The notes beneath the pieces are model-generated. The model searched no databases. It was not told the DNA's origin and was given only the letters and a program-made list of their open reading frames with translations. The position numbers and the translations under genes are program-made. Shown one piece after another: positions 18,436 through 23,151 of a stretch of DNA of 64,000 bases (positions are counted from its first letter, which is position 1; each line of letters opens with the position of its first letter). This stretch comes from Leucobacter muris. GTDB lineage: Bacteria > Actinomycetota > Actinomycetes > Actinomycetales > Microbacteriaceae. The stretch spans positions 1,426,001 through 1,490,000 of the forward strand of contig NZ_CP035037.1 in assembly GCF_004028235.1 (NCBI RefSeq), given 5' to 3'.

Positions 18436-19455
18436 GTGACCCCTGTTCTTCCGCTCTGGTTCGAGATCGGAGCGATGGTCGTGCTCGTCGCGATCCTCGT
18501 CATCGACCTGCTCCTCATCATCAAGCGCCCGCACGTGCCGAGCATGCGCGAAGCCAGCCTCTGGGTCGGCTTCTACGTGCTGCTCGCCCTCGTCTTCGCC
18601 GGCTGCATGTTCCTGCTGGGCGATGTGCAGCACGGCACCGAGTTCCTCGCGGGCTGGCTCACGGAGTACAGCCTCTCGATTGACAACCTCTTCGTGTTCG
18701 TGCTGATCCTCGGCAGCTTCAAGGTGCCGTACGCCTACCAGCAGCGGGCCCTCATGATCGGCATCATCCTCGCGCTGATCTTCCGCGGACTGTTCATCCT
18801 GGCCGGCGCGGCCATCATCGAGCGCTTCATCGCCGTGTTCTTCCTGTTCGGAGCCTGGCTCATCTGGACGGCGTGGCAGCAGGTCAAGCCCGGCGGGCAC
18901 GACGAGCAGGGCGACGGGCTCGCCGTGCGTCTCGCGAAGAGGATGTTCCCCTTCAGCGACCACTACGACGGCGGCAAGCTGCGCACCACGGTCGACGGCA
19001 AGCGCATGTTCACGCCCTTCCTGCTCGTGCTGATCTCGCTCGGCGCCACCGACCTGCTGTTCGCGCTCGACTCGATCCCCGCGATCTTCGGCATCACGCA
19101 GAGCCCCTTCATCGTCTTCACCGCCAACGTCTTCGCGCTCATGGGCCTGCGCCAGCTGTACTTCCTGCTCGGCGGCCTGCTCGATCGCCTGGAGTACCTC
19201 AAGTACGGCATCGCAGCGATCCTCGCTTTCATCGGCGTGAAGCTCATCTTCCACGCCCTGCACGAGAACGAGCTGCCCTTCATCAACGGCGGCGAGCACG
19301 TGCCGGTGCCCGAGATCAACACGTGGGTGTCGCTCGGCTTCATCGTCACGGCGATGGCGATCGCTACGGTTGCGAGCGTCGTGAAGATGAACCGCGAGGC
19401 GAAGCGCACCGGCGAGCGGCTGCACCTCGGCGCTCACGAGAACCCCGGCGACTGA
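18436..19455 (+). CDS. TerC family membrane protein (metal/tellurium-resistance-type)
   Basis: 339 residues from GTG 18436, whose AAAGAG ribosome-binding site lies within a riboswitch hairpin. It has about nine membrane segments; EYSLSIDNLFVFVLILGSF and SLGATDLLFALDSIPAIFGI hold the conserved acidic residues of the TerC family. TerC/Alx proteins are now linked to manganese export or metal loading of secreted enzymes, fitting the manganese riboswitch upstream. The longer reading starting near 18001 lies in the divergent gene and leader and is not used. A hairpin terminator follows the stop codon. Confidence 0.92.
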   Translation: MTPVLPLWFEIGAMVVLVAILVIDLLLIIKRPHVPSMREASLWVGFYVLLALVFAGCMFLLGDVQHGTEFLAGWLTEYSLSIDNLFVFVLILGSFKVPYAYQQRALMIGIILALIFRGLFILAGAAIIERFIAVFFLFGAWLIWTAWQQVKPGGHDEQGDGLAVRLAKRMFPFSDHYDGGKLRTTVDGKRMFTPFLLVLISLGATDLLFALDSIPAIFGITQSPFIVFTANVFALMGLRQLYFLLGGLLDRLEYLKYGIAAILAFIGVKLIFHALHENELPFINGGEHVPVPEINTWVSLGFIVTAMAIATVASVVKMNREAKRTGERLHLGAHENPGD

Positions 19456-19464
19456 ACCGGTCGC

Positions 19465-19501
19465 ACCGGGTGCCCGCTTCCAGGGAACGCGGGCACCCGG
19501 T
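19465..19501 (+). terminator. Terminator hairpin after terC
   Basis: ACCGGGTGCCCGC (19465-19477) and GCGGGCACCCGGT (19489-19501) form a perfect 13-bp stem with an 11-base loop. It lacks a long T-run and abuts the -10 element of the leu leader. Confidence 0.75.
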
Positions 19502-19503
19502 GG

Positions 19504-19509
19504 TAGACT
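19504..19509 (+). promoter_or_regulatory. -10 element of the leu leader transcript
   Basis: TAGACT lies seven bases before the ATG of the leader peptide, predicting a transcript that begins at or next to that ATG. The -35 region overlaps the terC terminator and is not recognisable. Confidence 0.6.
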
Positions 19510-19516
19510 CTTCGCT

Positions 19517-19561
19517 ATGCGTCGTCGGCAGCTTCTTCTTCCTTGCCGCGACGGGGTGTAG
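19517..19561 (+). CDS. leu leader peptide (14 aa, three consecutive Leu codons)
   Basis: ATG at 19517 opens a 14-codon frame ending TAG at 19561, reading MRRRQLLLPCRDGV. The three leucines are CTT CTT CTT (19532-19540), a codon seldom used in this GC-rich window, where CTC and CTG dominate; this would sharpen sensitivity to charged tRNA-Leu. It precedes leuC by 91 bases and is followed by competing hairpins. The pattern is that of a classical attenuation leader for leucine biosynthesis. No ribosome-binding site is present; translation is probably leaderless. Confidence 0.75.
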   Translation: MRRRQLLLPCRDGV

Positions 19562-19601
19562 CATTTCGGCCCTCCCGTCGCGGAGTCCGGCACGGCCGAA
19601 A
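19546..19601 (+). promoter_or_regulatory. Mutually exclusive hairpins of the leu attenuator
   Basis: Helix A pairs CCGCGACGGG (19546-19555, inside the leader ORF) with CCCGTCGCGG (19574-19583), ten perfect pairs. Helix B pairs TTTCGGCC (19564-19571) with GGCCGAAA (19594-19601). A's loop contains B's left arm, so the two compete. A ribosome paused at the Leu codons would mask A and favour B. No U-run identifies which state terminates, so polarity is unresolved. Confidence 0.65.
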
Positions 19602-19652
19602 AGCAATCGCGCGCGTTGGCGCATGCAAGTTACGGAATAGAGAAGCGCACGT

Positions 19653-21143
19653 ATGACTGAAGCAACCAAGCCCCGAACTCTGGCCGAGAAGCTGTGGGAC
19701 GACCACGTGGTCGTGAAGGGCGAGAACGGCGAGCCGGATCTCATCTACATCGACCTGCACCTCATCCACGAGGTCACCAGTCCGCAGGCCTTCGACGGCC
19801 TGCGCATGGCGAACCGGCCCCTGCGCCGCGTCGATCTCATGATCGCCACCGAGGATCACAACACCCCCACGGTCAACATCACCCGTCAGATCGAGGATCC
19901 GACGAGCCGGCTGCAGATCGAAACGCTGCGCCACAACGTCGAGGACTTCGGCGTGCGCGCCCACCCGCTCGGCGACAAAGAGCAGGGCATCGTGCACGTC
20001 GTCGGTCCGCAGCTCGGCCTCACGATGCCGGGCATCACGGTGGTCTGCGGCGACAGCCACACCTCGACCCACGGCGCCTTCGGCGCTCTCGCGTTCGGCA
20101 TCGGCACGAGCGAGGTCGAGCACGTGATGGCGACCCAGACCCTGCCGCTCAAGCCGTTCAAGACCATGGCGATCAACGTCGAGGGCGAGCTGCGCCCCGG
20201 CGTGACCGCGAAGGACATCATCCTCGCGGTCATCGCGAAGATCGGCACCGGCGGCGGGCAGGGTTATGTGCTCGAGTACCGCGGATCGGCGATCCGCAGC
20301 CTCTCGATGGACGGCCGCATGACGATCTGCAACATGTCGATCGAAGCCGGTGCCCGCGCGGGCATGGTCGCGCCCGACGAGATCACCTTCGACTATGTCA
20401 AGGGTCGTCCGCACGCGCCGCAGGGCGACGACTGGGATCGCGCCGTCGAGTACTGGAAGACGCTGCCCACCGACGACGGCGCCGTCTTCGACCGCGAGGT
20501 GTTCATCGATGCCGGCGAGCTCGAGCCCTTCGTGACCTGGGGCACGAACCCCGGCCAGGGCGTGCTGCTGAGCGATCGTGTGCCGAACCCCGTCCACATC
20601 GAGGATCCGAACGAGCGCGCCGCCGCCGAGCGAGCGCTCGAGTACACGGACCTCGAGGCCGGCACGCCCATGAAGGAGATCGCGGTCGACGCGGTCTTCA
20701 TGGGCTCCTGCACGAACAGCCGTCTCGACGACCTGCGCACCTTCACCAGCATCATCAAGGGCAAGAAGAAGGCCGAGGGGGTGCGCCTCATCGTGGTGCC
20801 CGGCTCGGCCCGTGTGCGCCTCGAGGCCGAGGCCGAGGGCCTCGACAAGATCGTCGAGGAGTTCGGCGGCGAGTGGCGCTTCGCGGGCTGCTCGATGTGC
20901 CTCGGCATGAACCCCGATCAGCTGGCCCCGGGGGAGCGCTGCGCCTCGACCTCGAACCGCAACTTCGAGGGCCGCCAGGGCAAGGGTGGCCGCACCCACC
21001 TCGTGTCTCCGCTCGTCGCCGCCGCGACCGCGATCCGCGGCACGCTCTCGAGCCCCTGGGATCTGAAGGAGGATGCCGAGAACGGCATCACGCACGACGC
21101 GGACGGCGCGGCGCACGCCGCCGAGAAGGTTGAGGCAGCGTAA
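19653..21143 (+). CDS. leuC: 3-isopropylmalate dehydratase, large subunit
   Basis: 496 residues, normal for bacterial LeuC. It isomerises 2- to 3-isopropylmalate in leucine synthesis together with LeuD. The [4Fe-4S] ligands are in [13 protein letters not shown] (about 350) and [13 protein letters not shown] (about 412); [14 protein letters not shown] is the aconitase-family substrate motif. GAGAAG precedes the ATG. It is followed two bases later by leuD and preceded by the leucine leader peptide, so leucine-dependent attenuation is expected. Confidence 0.97.
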
Positions 21144-21145
21144 CC

Positions 21146-21748
21146 ATGGACAAGTTCATCACGATGTCGGGCATCGCCGCACCGCTGAAGCGCTCCAACG
21201 TCGACACCGACCAGATCATCCCCGCCGTCTTCCTGAAGCGCGTCACCAAGACCGGCTTCGACGACGCGCTCTTCTACCACTGGCGGCAAGATGAGGGCTT
21301 CGTGCTCAACCAGCCCGTCTTCCAGGGCGCCGAGATCCTGGTCGCCGGCCCCGACTTCGGCACCGGATCGTCGCGGGAGCACGCCGTCTGGGCGCTGCGC
21401 GACTTCGGCTTCAAGGTGGTCATCTCGCCGCGCTTCGCCGACATCTTCCGAGGCAACTCCGGGAAGCAGGGTCTGCTCGCCGCCCAGGTCGAAGAGGCCG
21501 ACGTCGAGAAGCTCTGGGCGGCGATCGACGCCGAGCCCGGAGTGCAGCTGACCGTGAGCCTGGAAGACCGCACCGTCTCGGTCGGCGACCTGACCGTGCC
21601 GTTCCAGGTCGACGATTACACCCGCTGGCGTCTGATGGAGGGGCTCGACGACATCTCGCTGACCCTTCGCAACGAGTCGGCAATCACTGAATTCGAGGCT
21701 CGGCGACCGACCTGGATGCCGACCACAACCCCGCTGGAGGCCGCGTGA
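21146..21748 (+). CDS. leuD: 3-isopropylmalate dehydratase, small subunit
   Basis: 200 residues. It forms the swivel domain that completes the LeuCD active site: [15 protein letters not shown] near the N-terminus and [20 protein letters not shown] (about 72-91) are diagnostic. It starts two bases after leuC ends, and its stop overlaps the murA GTG by four bases, so leuC, leuD and murA are likely one transcript and translationally coupled. Expression would fall under the leu leader. Confidence 0.97.
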
Positions 21749-23151
21749 GCGAGCAGGACGCACCGAACGACGACACGACCGCCGAAGGGCTCAAGAAAGA
21801 CGCTCAGAAAGCCGGCGCCCGCGTGGGGCTGACCTCCGATGAGATCCTCATCAACGGCGGTCGGCCTCTGCAGGGGCGGATCGAGGTGCGCGGCGCCAAG
21901 AACCTCGCCACCAAGGCGATGGTGGCGGCGCTGCTCGGCAAGTCGCCCAGCGTGCTGCGCAACGTGCCGAACATCTCCGACGTGCGCGTCGTCGCCGGTC
22001 TGCTGGCCCTGCACGGCGTGTTGATCACCCGCGGCGACGAGCCGGGCGTGTGGCGCCTGGACCCCTCGAACGTCGAGGTGGCCCACCAGGCCGACATCGA
22101 CGCGCACGCGGGGTCGTCCCGCATCCCGATCCTCTTCTGCGGCCCGCTGCTGCACCGTCTCGGCGAGGCGTTCATCCCCGACCTCGGCGGGTGCCGCATC
22201 GGCGACCGGCCCATCGACTTCCACCTCGACGCACTGCGCAAGTTCGGTGCGGTCGTCGAGAAGCTGCCGAGCGGCATCAGCCTCACGGCCCCCAACGGGC
22301 TCAAAGGCGCCAACATCGAGCTGCCCTACCCGTCGGTCGGTGCCACCGAGCAGGTGCTGCTCACGAGCGTGCTCGCCGAGGGGCAGACCGAGCTGCGCAA
22401 CGCGGCGATCGAGCCCGAGATCATCGACCTCATCTGCATCCTGCAGAAGATGGGCGCGATCATCACGGTCGAGCCCAACCGCGTCATCTTCATCGAGGGC
22501 GTGAAAGAGCTGCGGGGCTACGACCACGCGGCGATCTTCGACCGCAACGAGGCCGCCAGCTGGGCCGCAGCCGCCCTCGCCACGAAGGGCGACGTGTTCG
22601 TCGGAGGCGCGAAGCAGGAGGAGATGATGACCTTCCTCAACGTCTTCCGCAAGGTCGGCGGCGACTTCGACGTGCACTCTGACGGCATCCGCTTCTGGCA
22701 TCCCGGGGGCGACCTCAAGCCGGTGACCATCGAGACCGACGTGCACCCCGGCTTCATGACCGACTGGCAGCAGCCTCTCGTCGTCGCCCTCACCCAGGCC
22801 CAGGGCGTGTCGACGATTCACGAGACGGTCTACGAGAACCGTTTCGGATTCACCGAGGCCCTCAACAAGATGGGCGCCGACATCGTGGTCTACAAGGAGG
22901 GGCTGCACGACAGCACCCGCCGCGTGATGCGCCGCGAATTCGAGCAGGCCGCCGTGATCACGGGGCCCACCCCGCTCACGGGTGCCGACATCGAGGTGCC
23001 CGACCTGCGGGGCGGTTTCAGCCACCTCATCGCGGCGCTCACCGCCGAGGGAAGCTCGAAGGTCACGAACATCGGCATCATCTCGCGCGGCTACGAGAAC
23101 TTCATCGAGAAGCTGCGGCAGCTCGGCGCCGACTTCGTCTACGAGAGCTGA
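21745..23151 (+). CDS. murA: UDP-N-acetylglucosamine 1-carboxyvinyltransferase
   Basis: 468 residues from GTG 21745, about 45 longer than E. coli MurA; the extra length is mainly a polar ~30-residue N-terminal extension. It transfers enolpyruvate from PEP to UDP-GlcNAc, the first committed step of peptidoglycan synthesis. [15 protein letters not shown] carries the PEP-binding cysteine (fosfomycin target), which is retained; [16 protein letters not shown] near the N-terminus carries the conserved KN motif. Its start overlaps the leuD stop. A hairpin follows the gene and separates it from plsC. Confidence 0.95.

Follow-up and report, generated by a model that had tools for sequence, protein, structure and literature searches.

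The region between a TerC/Alx-family gene and leuC of Leucobacter muris carries a short ORF with a run of leucine codons, which raises the question of whether leuC responds to leucine and, if so, at which step of expression. The region was analysed within a window of 64,000 nt (NZ_CP035037.1, positions 1,426,001-1,490,000, forward strand, assembly GCF_004028235.1), and the coordinates given below are positions in this window unless the whole genome is named. The initial annotation had interpreted the region as a ribosome-mediated attenuator with two mutually exclusive helices. It had missed the identity of the region with the LEU element known from leuA; the leuC leader is a real leucine leader and a new placement of this element.

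Direct reading of the sequence confirmed the annotated 14-codon ORF with three CTT codons between a -10 element and leuC. The conserved extended -10 element TGG-TAGACT (TGGTAGACT, 19501-19509, plus strand) includes TAGACT at 19504-19509, and the leader ATG (19517-19519) lies 7 nt past it. The probably leaderless ORF, encoding MRRRQLLLPCRDGV, spans 19517-19561 on the plus strand and ends with TAG (19559-19561) in the loop of the helix H1. The run CTT CTT CTT forms codons 6-8 (19532-19540) and doubles as an anti-Shine-Dalgarno strand. The annotated rarity of CTT was borne out: seven genes of the window contain 249 leucine codons, of which one is CTT. No two-hexamer sigma-70 promoter turned up at the leader in a scan, and the promoter call rests on the conserved extended -10. 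A perfect 12-bp inverted repeat (19466-19477/19489-19500) lies between the end of the TerC/Alx-family gene and the leader promoter, over the -35 region; it may be an operator, or else a terminator that lacks a U-tract.

Downstream on the same strand are leuC (19653-21143; TIGR00170, 724.6 bits) and leuD (21146-21748; TIGR00171, 203.5 bits), encoding the large and small subunits of 3-isopropylmalate dehydratase, and murA (21745-23151; TIGR01072, 423.5 bits). The reported overlap of leuD and murA is real (4 nt, 21745-21748), so that coupling is conceivable and leucine control may reach murA by this route.

Both annotated helices were present. H1 consists of 10 bp between 19546-19555 (CCGCGACGGG) and 19574-19583 (CCCGTCGCGG), and H2 of 8 bp between 19564-19571 (TTTCGGCC) and 19594-19601 (GGCCGAAA), all on the plus strand. 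The claim that they exclude each other was not sustained, as they share no bases and their complementarity is kept by matched changes. Since the 5' arm of H2 lies inside the H1 loop and its 3' arm outside, the two helices interleave and, judging from the sequence, can form an H-type pseudoknot. A third pairing, the base stem, was predicted by the fold and by the accessibility models between 19531-19542 and 19634-19646 (plus strand), with C19538 and 19638-19639 unpaired; its 3' arm contains the Shine-Dalgarno-like GAGAAG (19640-19645) of leuC. The pairing in competition, according to the models, is the one between the Leu-codon run and the Shine-Dalgarno region of leuC, not H1 versus H2.

In the E. 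coli leu operon, stalling on the Leu codons of a leader peptide, which has its own ribosome-binding site, controls an intrinsic terminator. The proposed leuC leader would resemble this attenuator in its sensor. A search of the plus strand in 19400-19700, however, turned up no terminator-like site, and the helices do not compete for the same bases. What stood of the annotated attenuation was the leucine leader peptide before leuC with its conserved Leu codons, and not the exclusive helices or the terminator/antiterminator layout. Given its composition, the leader had a minimum-energy fold of ordinary stability (z -0.93 and -0.78), and stability was therefore kept out of the evidence. The covariance models of Rfam 15 gave no match across 19440-19700 at E<=1.

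As described before leuA in Actinobacteria, the LEU element has a leader ORF containing leucine codons, can fold into a pseudoknot and pairs its Leu codons with the Shine-Dalgarno box in a base stem (Seliverstov et al. 2005, PMC1262725). Compared with the accessible part of that description, all three parts can be drawn for the leuC leader: the ORF, the pseudoknot as interleaved helices whose H2 complementarity is kept, and the base stem as a computed pairing. Homology to published examples was found through the covariance model R1, which was constructed from 20 leuC leaders (that of the window and those of 19 loci) and the leuA1 leader of the own genome. In two genomes that belong to another family, R1 detected leuA leaders encoding MRFGLLLLSCRGEGL, and this is the peptide printed for LeuL1, the leader of Streptomyces lividans leuA, which is reported to be transcribed leaderless, to contain a Leu run and to lack a typical terminator (PMC8079986, as far as the accessible text goes). 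The window leader differs from LeuL1 in its peptide (MRRRQLLLPCRDGV) and in preceding leuC; a separate copy in the own genome precedes leuA, and we treated the location at leuA as placement and not as part of the structure of the element. A leuA leader with four Leu codons is also described for C. glutamicum (PMC4046766). Unlike the element of the 2005 study, copies here also precede leuC, a second leuA and an MFS gene. In the accessible main text of that study, figures aside, the word leuC does not occur, and no report of a LEU copy at leuC was found in the open-access literature, in which this leuA study was the nearest (PMC1262725).

Covariance models were used for the survey because a simple H1 pattern was uninformative in the own genome (23 matches per strand, 33 in the control). 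At leuC loci the element was detected by reading upstream regions (28 loci) and with R1. There were at least 597 candidate loci, of which the best 80 were kept. The element was located just upstream of leuC at 19 of these 80, all of which 19 are included in R1 and are titled Microbacteriaceae or one of its genera. These are 19 of 27 family loci among the best 80, assigned by title with a genus-to-family membership that we take as given; the element was absent at the other eight (Curtobacterium, Frigoribacterium, two Agrococcus, Salinibacterium, Rhodoluna and two others). The annotation had proposed a covariance search in related genomes, and its expectation held: the Leu codons are conserved and 19 related leuC loci have the same type of leader. 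In 149 genomes of the order, R1 detected the element next to leuC in 10 of 10 family members but in none of the 133 genomes outside the family that had a leuC match, at a threshold (E<=0.001) where weak copies could be missed. A scripted check of genomes with the element and leuC on one contig found 10 adjacent and 45 not adjacent (nearest 19.7 kb). In the ten family members compared, the matched element ended 19-55 nt ahead of the leuC match. At least one R1 copy was present in 240 of 249 family genomes, 105 of 149 order genomes and 255 of 296 class genomes. Based on these comparisons, the leuC copy is conserved in Microbacteriaceae. The weak model matches L167, L213, L214, L219 and L221 were rejected, being inside coding sequence or having no leucine gene downstream.

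The pairing of H2 was examined in 159 of 164 elements; in the other five, H1 was not at the expected place. One bulge was allowed, as an ungapped search missed many leuA1 and leuC copies with a one-base bulge. The mean complementarity was 15.7, compared to 14.6 when 3' partners were exchanged within a class (sd 0.18; maximum of 40 permutations 15.0), 13.6 when they were exchanged between classes and 12.2 after shuffling of the 3' sequence. The excess was seen in the leuC class (13.97 versus 13.03; reached by 0 of 2000 permutations, and by 6 of 2000 after reduction to 44 distinct loops), in leuA1 (14.31 versus 13.19; 0 of 2000) and in leuA2 (1 of 2000). It was absent in the leuB class (434 of 2000) and in the MFS class (1023 of 2000), each with four elements. 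In the leuA2 alignment, 94.8% of H1 and H2 cells were paired. Five pairs were doubly changed, a number reached by 2 of 500 shuffles; four of them belong to H1 and one to H2. H1 of the leuC alignment was paired in 99.5% of cells (21 leaders) and mostly invariant. Its covariation was weak because six of the ten pairs never vary: as many as its two doubly changed pairs occurred in 90 of 500 shuffles, and shifting the helix by -3 gave an equal score.

The reading frame and the promoter spacing were compared among 162 distinct leaders. The annotation had placed the start codon as in leaderless transcripts; in agreement, a -10 (TAnnnT) was present 5-7 nt ahead of the start codon in 47 of 50 leuC leaders, and likewise in 59 of 65 leuA1, 33 of 33 leuA2, 9 of 9 MFS and 3 of 4 leuB leaders. 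The TGn extension occurred in 43 of those 47 leuC leaders. A stop codon was located in the H1 loop, or at most 3 nt away, in all 50 leuC and all 65 leuA1 leaders, in 29 of 33 leuA2 leaders, and in 6 of 7 MFS and 4 of 4 leuB leaders counted. The leaders of the 19 leuC loci share their reading frame and -10 spacing as well as a run of 2-5 Leu codons. The leader ORF would be transcribed leaderless, from a start at or next to its ATG.

The accessibility of the leuC Shine-Dalgarno sequence was modelled for free RNA, for RNA with a 30-nt mask around the Leu codons (stall) and for RNA with a 30-nt mask at the stop codon, using an energy model that omits the pseudoknot and a 16S tail and Shine-Dalgarno consensus that we presumed. 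In the window, the unpaired probability of GAGAAG was 0.02 in the free state, 0.97 with the stall mask and 0.02 with the stop mask. The predicted switch was weaker with an automatic choice of the Shine-Dalgarno sequence (0.37, 0.95 and 0.63, respectively) or with the sequence set by pairing to the presumed 16S tail (0.29, 0.80 and 0.40). By the latter definition, the means for 49 of the 50 leuC leaders were 0.28, 0.50 and 0.35, when compared with 0.40, 0.43 and 0.45 in 196 controls with shuffled upstream sequence, so that stall minus stop was +0.146 in the leaders versus -0.020 in the controls. The pairing probability between the Leu run and the Shine-Dalgarno region averaged 0.56 in the 49 leaders. 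With the automatic choice, the stall mask left the Shine-Dalgarno sequence more open than the stop mask did in 45 of 50 leuC, 51 of 65 leuA1, 26 of 33 leuA2 and 4 of 9 MFS leaders. The modelled switch is in the expected direction and of modest size.

The comparisons show the anatomy, the conservation, the kept complementarity and the target genes of the leader. We consider it fairly probable that this LEU-type leader RNA is a leucine-responsive translational attenuator of leuC acting by ribosome stalling. Transcription would start at or beside the leader ATG. When leucyl-tRNA is ample, a ribosome would read the whole leader ORF and terminate at its UAG within the loop of H1. The run of Leu codons would then pair with the leuC Shine-Dalgarno region, forming a stem that encloses the H1/H2 pseudoknot, and leuC would be poorly initiated. 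When leucyl-tRNA is scarce, the ribosome would stall on the CUU run and cover the anti-Shine-Dalgarno strand together with the edge of H1, by which the leuC start would be freed. We infer the stalling, the leucine response and the effect on leuC translation; the exposure of the start site upon stalling was obtained in the models. Several results count against this translational attenuator: the switch in the window weakens under the other two Shine-Dalgarno definitions, the difference between stall and stop exceeded 0.3 in only 9 of 49 leuC leaders (3 of 196 controls), and the stalled state was more open in just the 4 of 9 MFS leaders noted above. The same holds for the missing H2 excess in the MFS and leuB elements, the weak covariation of H1 at leuC and the omission of the pseudoknot from the energy model.

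Among the alternatives, transcription attenuation seems unlikely. In this case, stalling or its lack would decide whether RNA polymerase goes on past the leader or is terminated there, by Rho or in another non-canonical way. The leader-peptide layout resembles known attenuators, and approximately 50 nt are available between H2 and leuC in the window. Precedents in the accessible literature include the S. lividans leuA leader, likewise without a typical terminator (PMC8079986), and the cys leaders of mycobacteria, for which the 2005 authors proposed Rho (PMC1262725). Against these stand the lack of a terminator-like site on the plus strand, the merely 19-55 nt between the element end and the leuC match in the ten family members, and the predicted pairing of the Leu run with the Shine-Dalgarno region.

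Whether the codons themselves are sensed was addressed by copies near leuB, a class comprising elements that precede neither leuA, leuC, leuA2 nor an MFS gene. In other families an element copy is located near leuB, in several genomes before a conserved micro-ORF, and the leaders have mixed Ile/Val/Leu runs, such as MARQLVILSSRGEFR, MRSVFVLIDCRGEA and MRFVLILRCRDGA. Among distinct leaders near leuB or the micro-ORF, Ile occurred within residues 4-11 in 9 of 9 and LLL in none, while of 144 other distinct leaders entered, 134 had LLL and 10 had Ile at these residues; the leaders are mutually related, and a dozen or so further ones were left out of this comparison. That the codon run tracks the pathway in this way speaks for ribosome stalling as the sensor, and because the peptide changes while H1 and H2 can still be drawn, its decoding appears to matter. 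This change from Leu to Ile/Val/Leu amounts to a codon swap made by nature, and it points to stalling. The micro-ORF, of about 20-26 aa (e.g. MSEEAQKARQALQESMDLREQGHSDD), was observed behind an Ile/Val/Leu leader in L252, L253, L254, L255 and L258 of other families; leuB lies further on in L252-L254 and L258, and L255 has the micro-ORF with no leuB in the stretch examined. A search of 149 order genomes at E<=0.1 detected the micro-ORF in 12, and in ten of its upstream regions the leader was flagged by script in four and recognised by reading in a fifth (L300, the same place as L258).

The same codon shift bears on a second alternative, in which the pseudoknot is bound by a protein and the leader codons have no sensing role. 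The nearly invariant H1 sequence and the kept pseudoknot would suit such a protein. In the accessible text of the 2005 comparative study, leader translation is argued against as the LEU sensor, a DEAD-box protein is proposed for leuA, and earlier Leu-codon mutations in S. coelicolor leuA are recounted as inconsistent with classical attenuation (PMC1262725); the reported insensitivity to these mutations is also a point against the translational attenuator. A binding protein is nevertheless improbable, as the codon run shifts near leuB while H1 and H2 stay, and every leuC and leuA1 leader has retained its stop codon at the H1 loop. That the CTT run serves merely as anti-Shine-Dalgarno strand and the small ORF senses nothing is highly improbable: CTT/CTC runs do complement Shine-Dalgarno sequences and CTT is nearly absent from the seven window genes, but the reading frame is kept together with its start codon, its stop position and the spacing to the -10, and leaders near leuB read Ile/Val/Leu.

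Returning to the stalling-based translational attenuator, we see about an even chance that LEU is one case of a wider, actinomycete-wide group of leaderless, pseudoknotted translational attenuators. In such a group, the codon run would be re-set to the downstream pathway (Leu for leuA, leuA2, leuC and MFS; Ile/Val/Leu for leuB and the micro-ORF), stalling would expose the next start codon, and the leucine steps of separate operons in Microbacteriaceae would be co-ordinated. If true, one RNA design links several leucine genes in this family, here ahead of a murA overlapping leuD. The leuC, leuA2, MFS and leuB copies provide natural variants for the question of the LEU mechanism.

The L. muris genome contains four copies of the element, before leuA1, the second leuA (leuA2), leuC and an MFS transporter gene. 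R1 detected leuA1, leuC and, weakly, leuA2 in the own genome, and the MFS site at E=0.23 only. The second model, R2, was constructed from 14 leuA2 leaders (the own and 13 others) and the own MFS leader. In the whole genome it detected the leuC (E=2.1e-6) and leuA1 (E=3.2e-6) leaders; as R2 contains no leuC or leuA1 leader, its match to the leuC element indicates that the element is beyond chance. Its values for leuA2 (3.9e-19) and the MFS site (1.9e-11) concern leaders inside the model and, like all such values of R1 and R2, are not independent evidence. In own-genome coordinates, the MFS copy (1924778-1924870, minus strand; leader MSRAQLLRRRNGV; H2 GACCGGC/GCCGGTC) precedes a PF07690 gene. 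It recurs in seven other genomes of the genus (homologues of 64-80% identity), found via R2 itself, and in two of another genus; the element was present at 3 of 30 MFS homologue loci examined out of 77 places found. The LEU-type leader makes this gene a possible leucine-linked transporter.

In the own leuA1 (L087:1394-1501), the frame from the expected start breaks before the conserved part, which is either a true frameshift or an assembly error. The leuA2 copy (2049222-2049320, plus strand, own genome) is a LEU-type leader before the second 2-isopropylmalate synthase gene. The leuA2 promoter regions have a conserved stretch upstream of the -10, with the consensus ACTTGTCTGAGGAGTTGTG in 33 leaders, which looks like a special promoter or operator.
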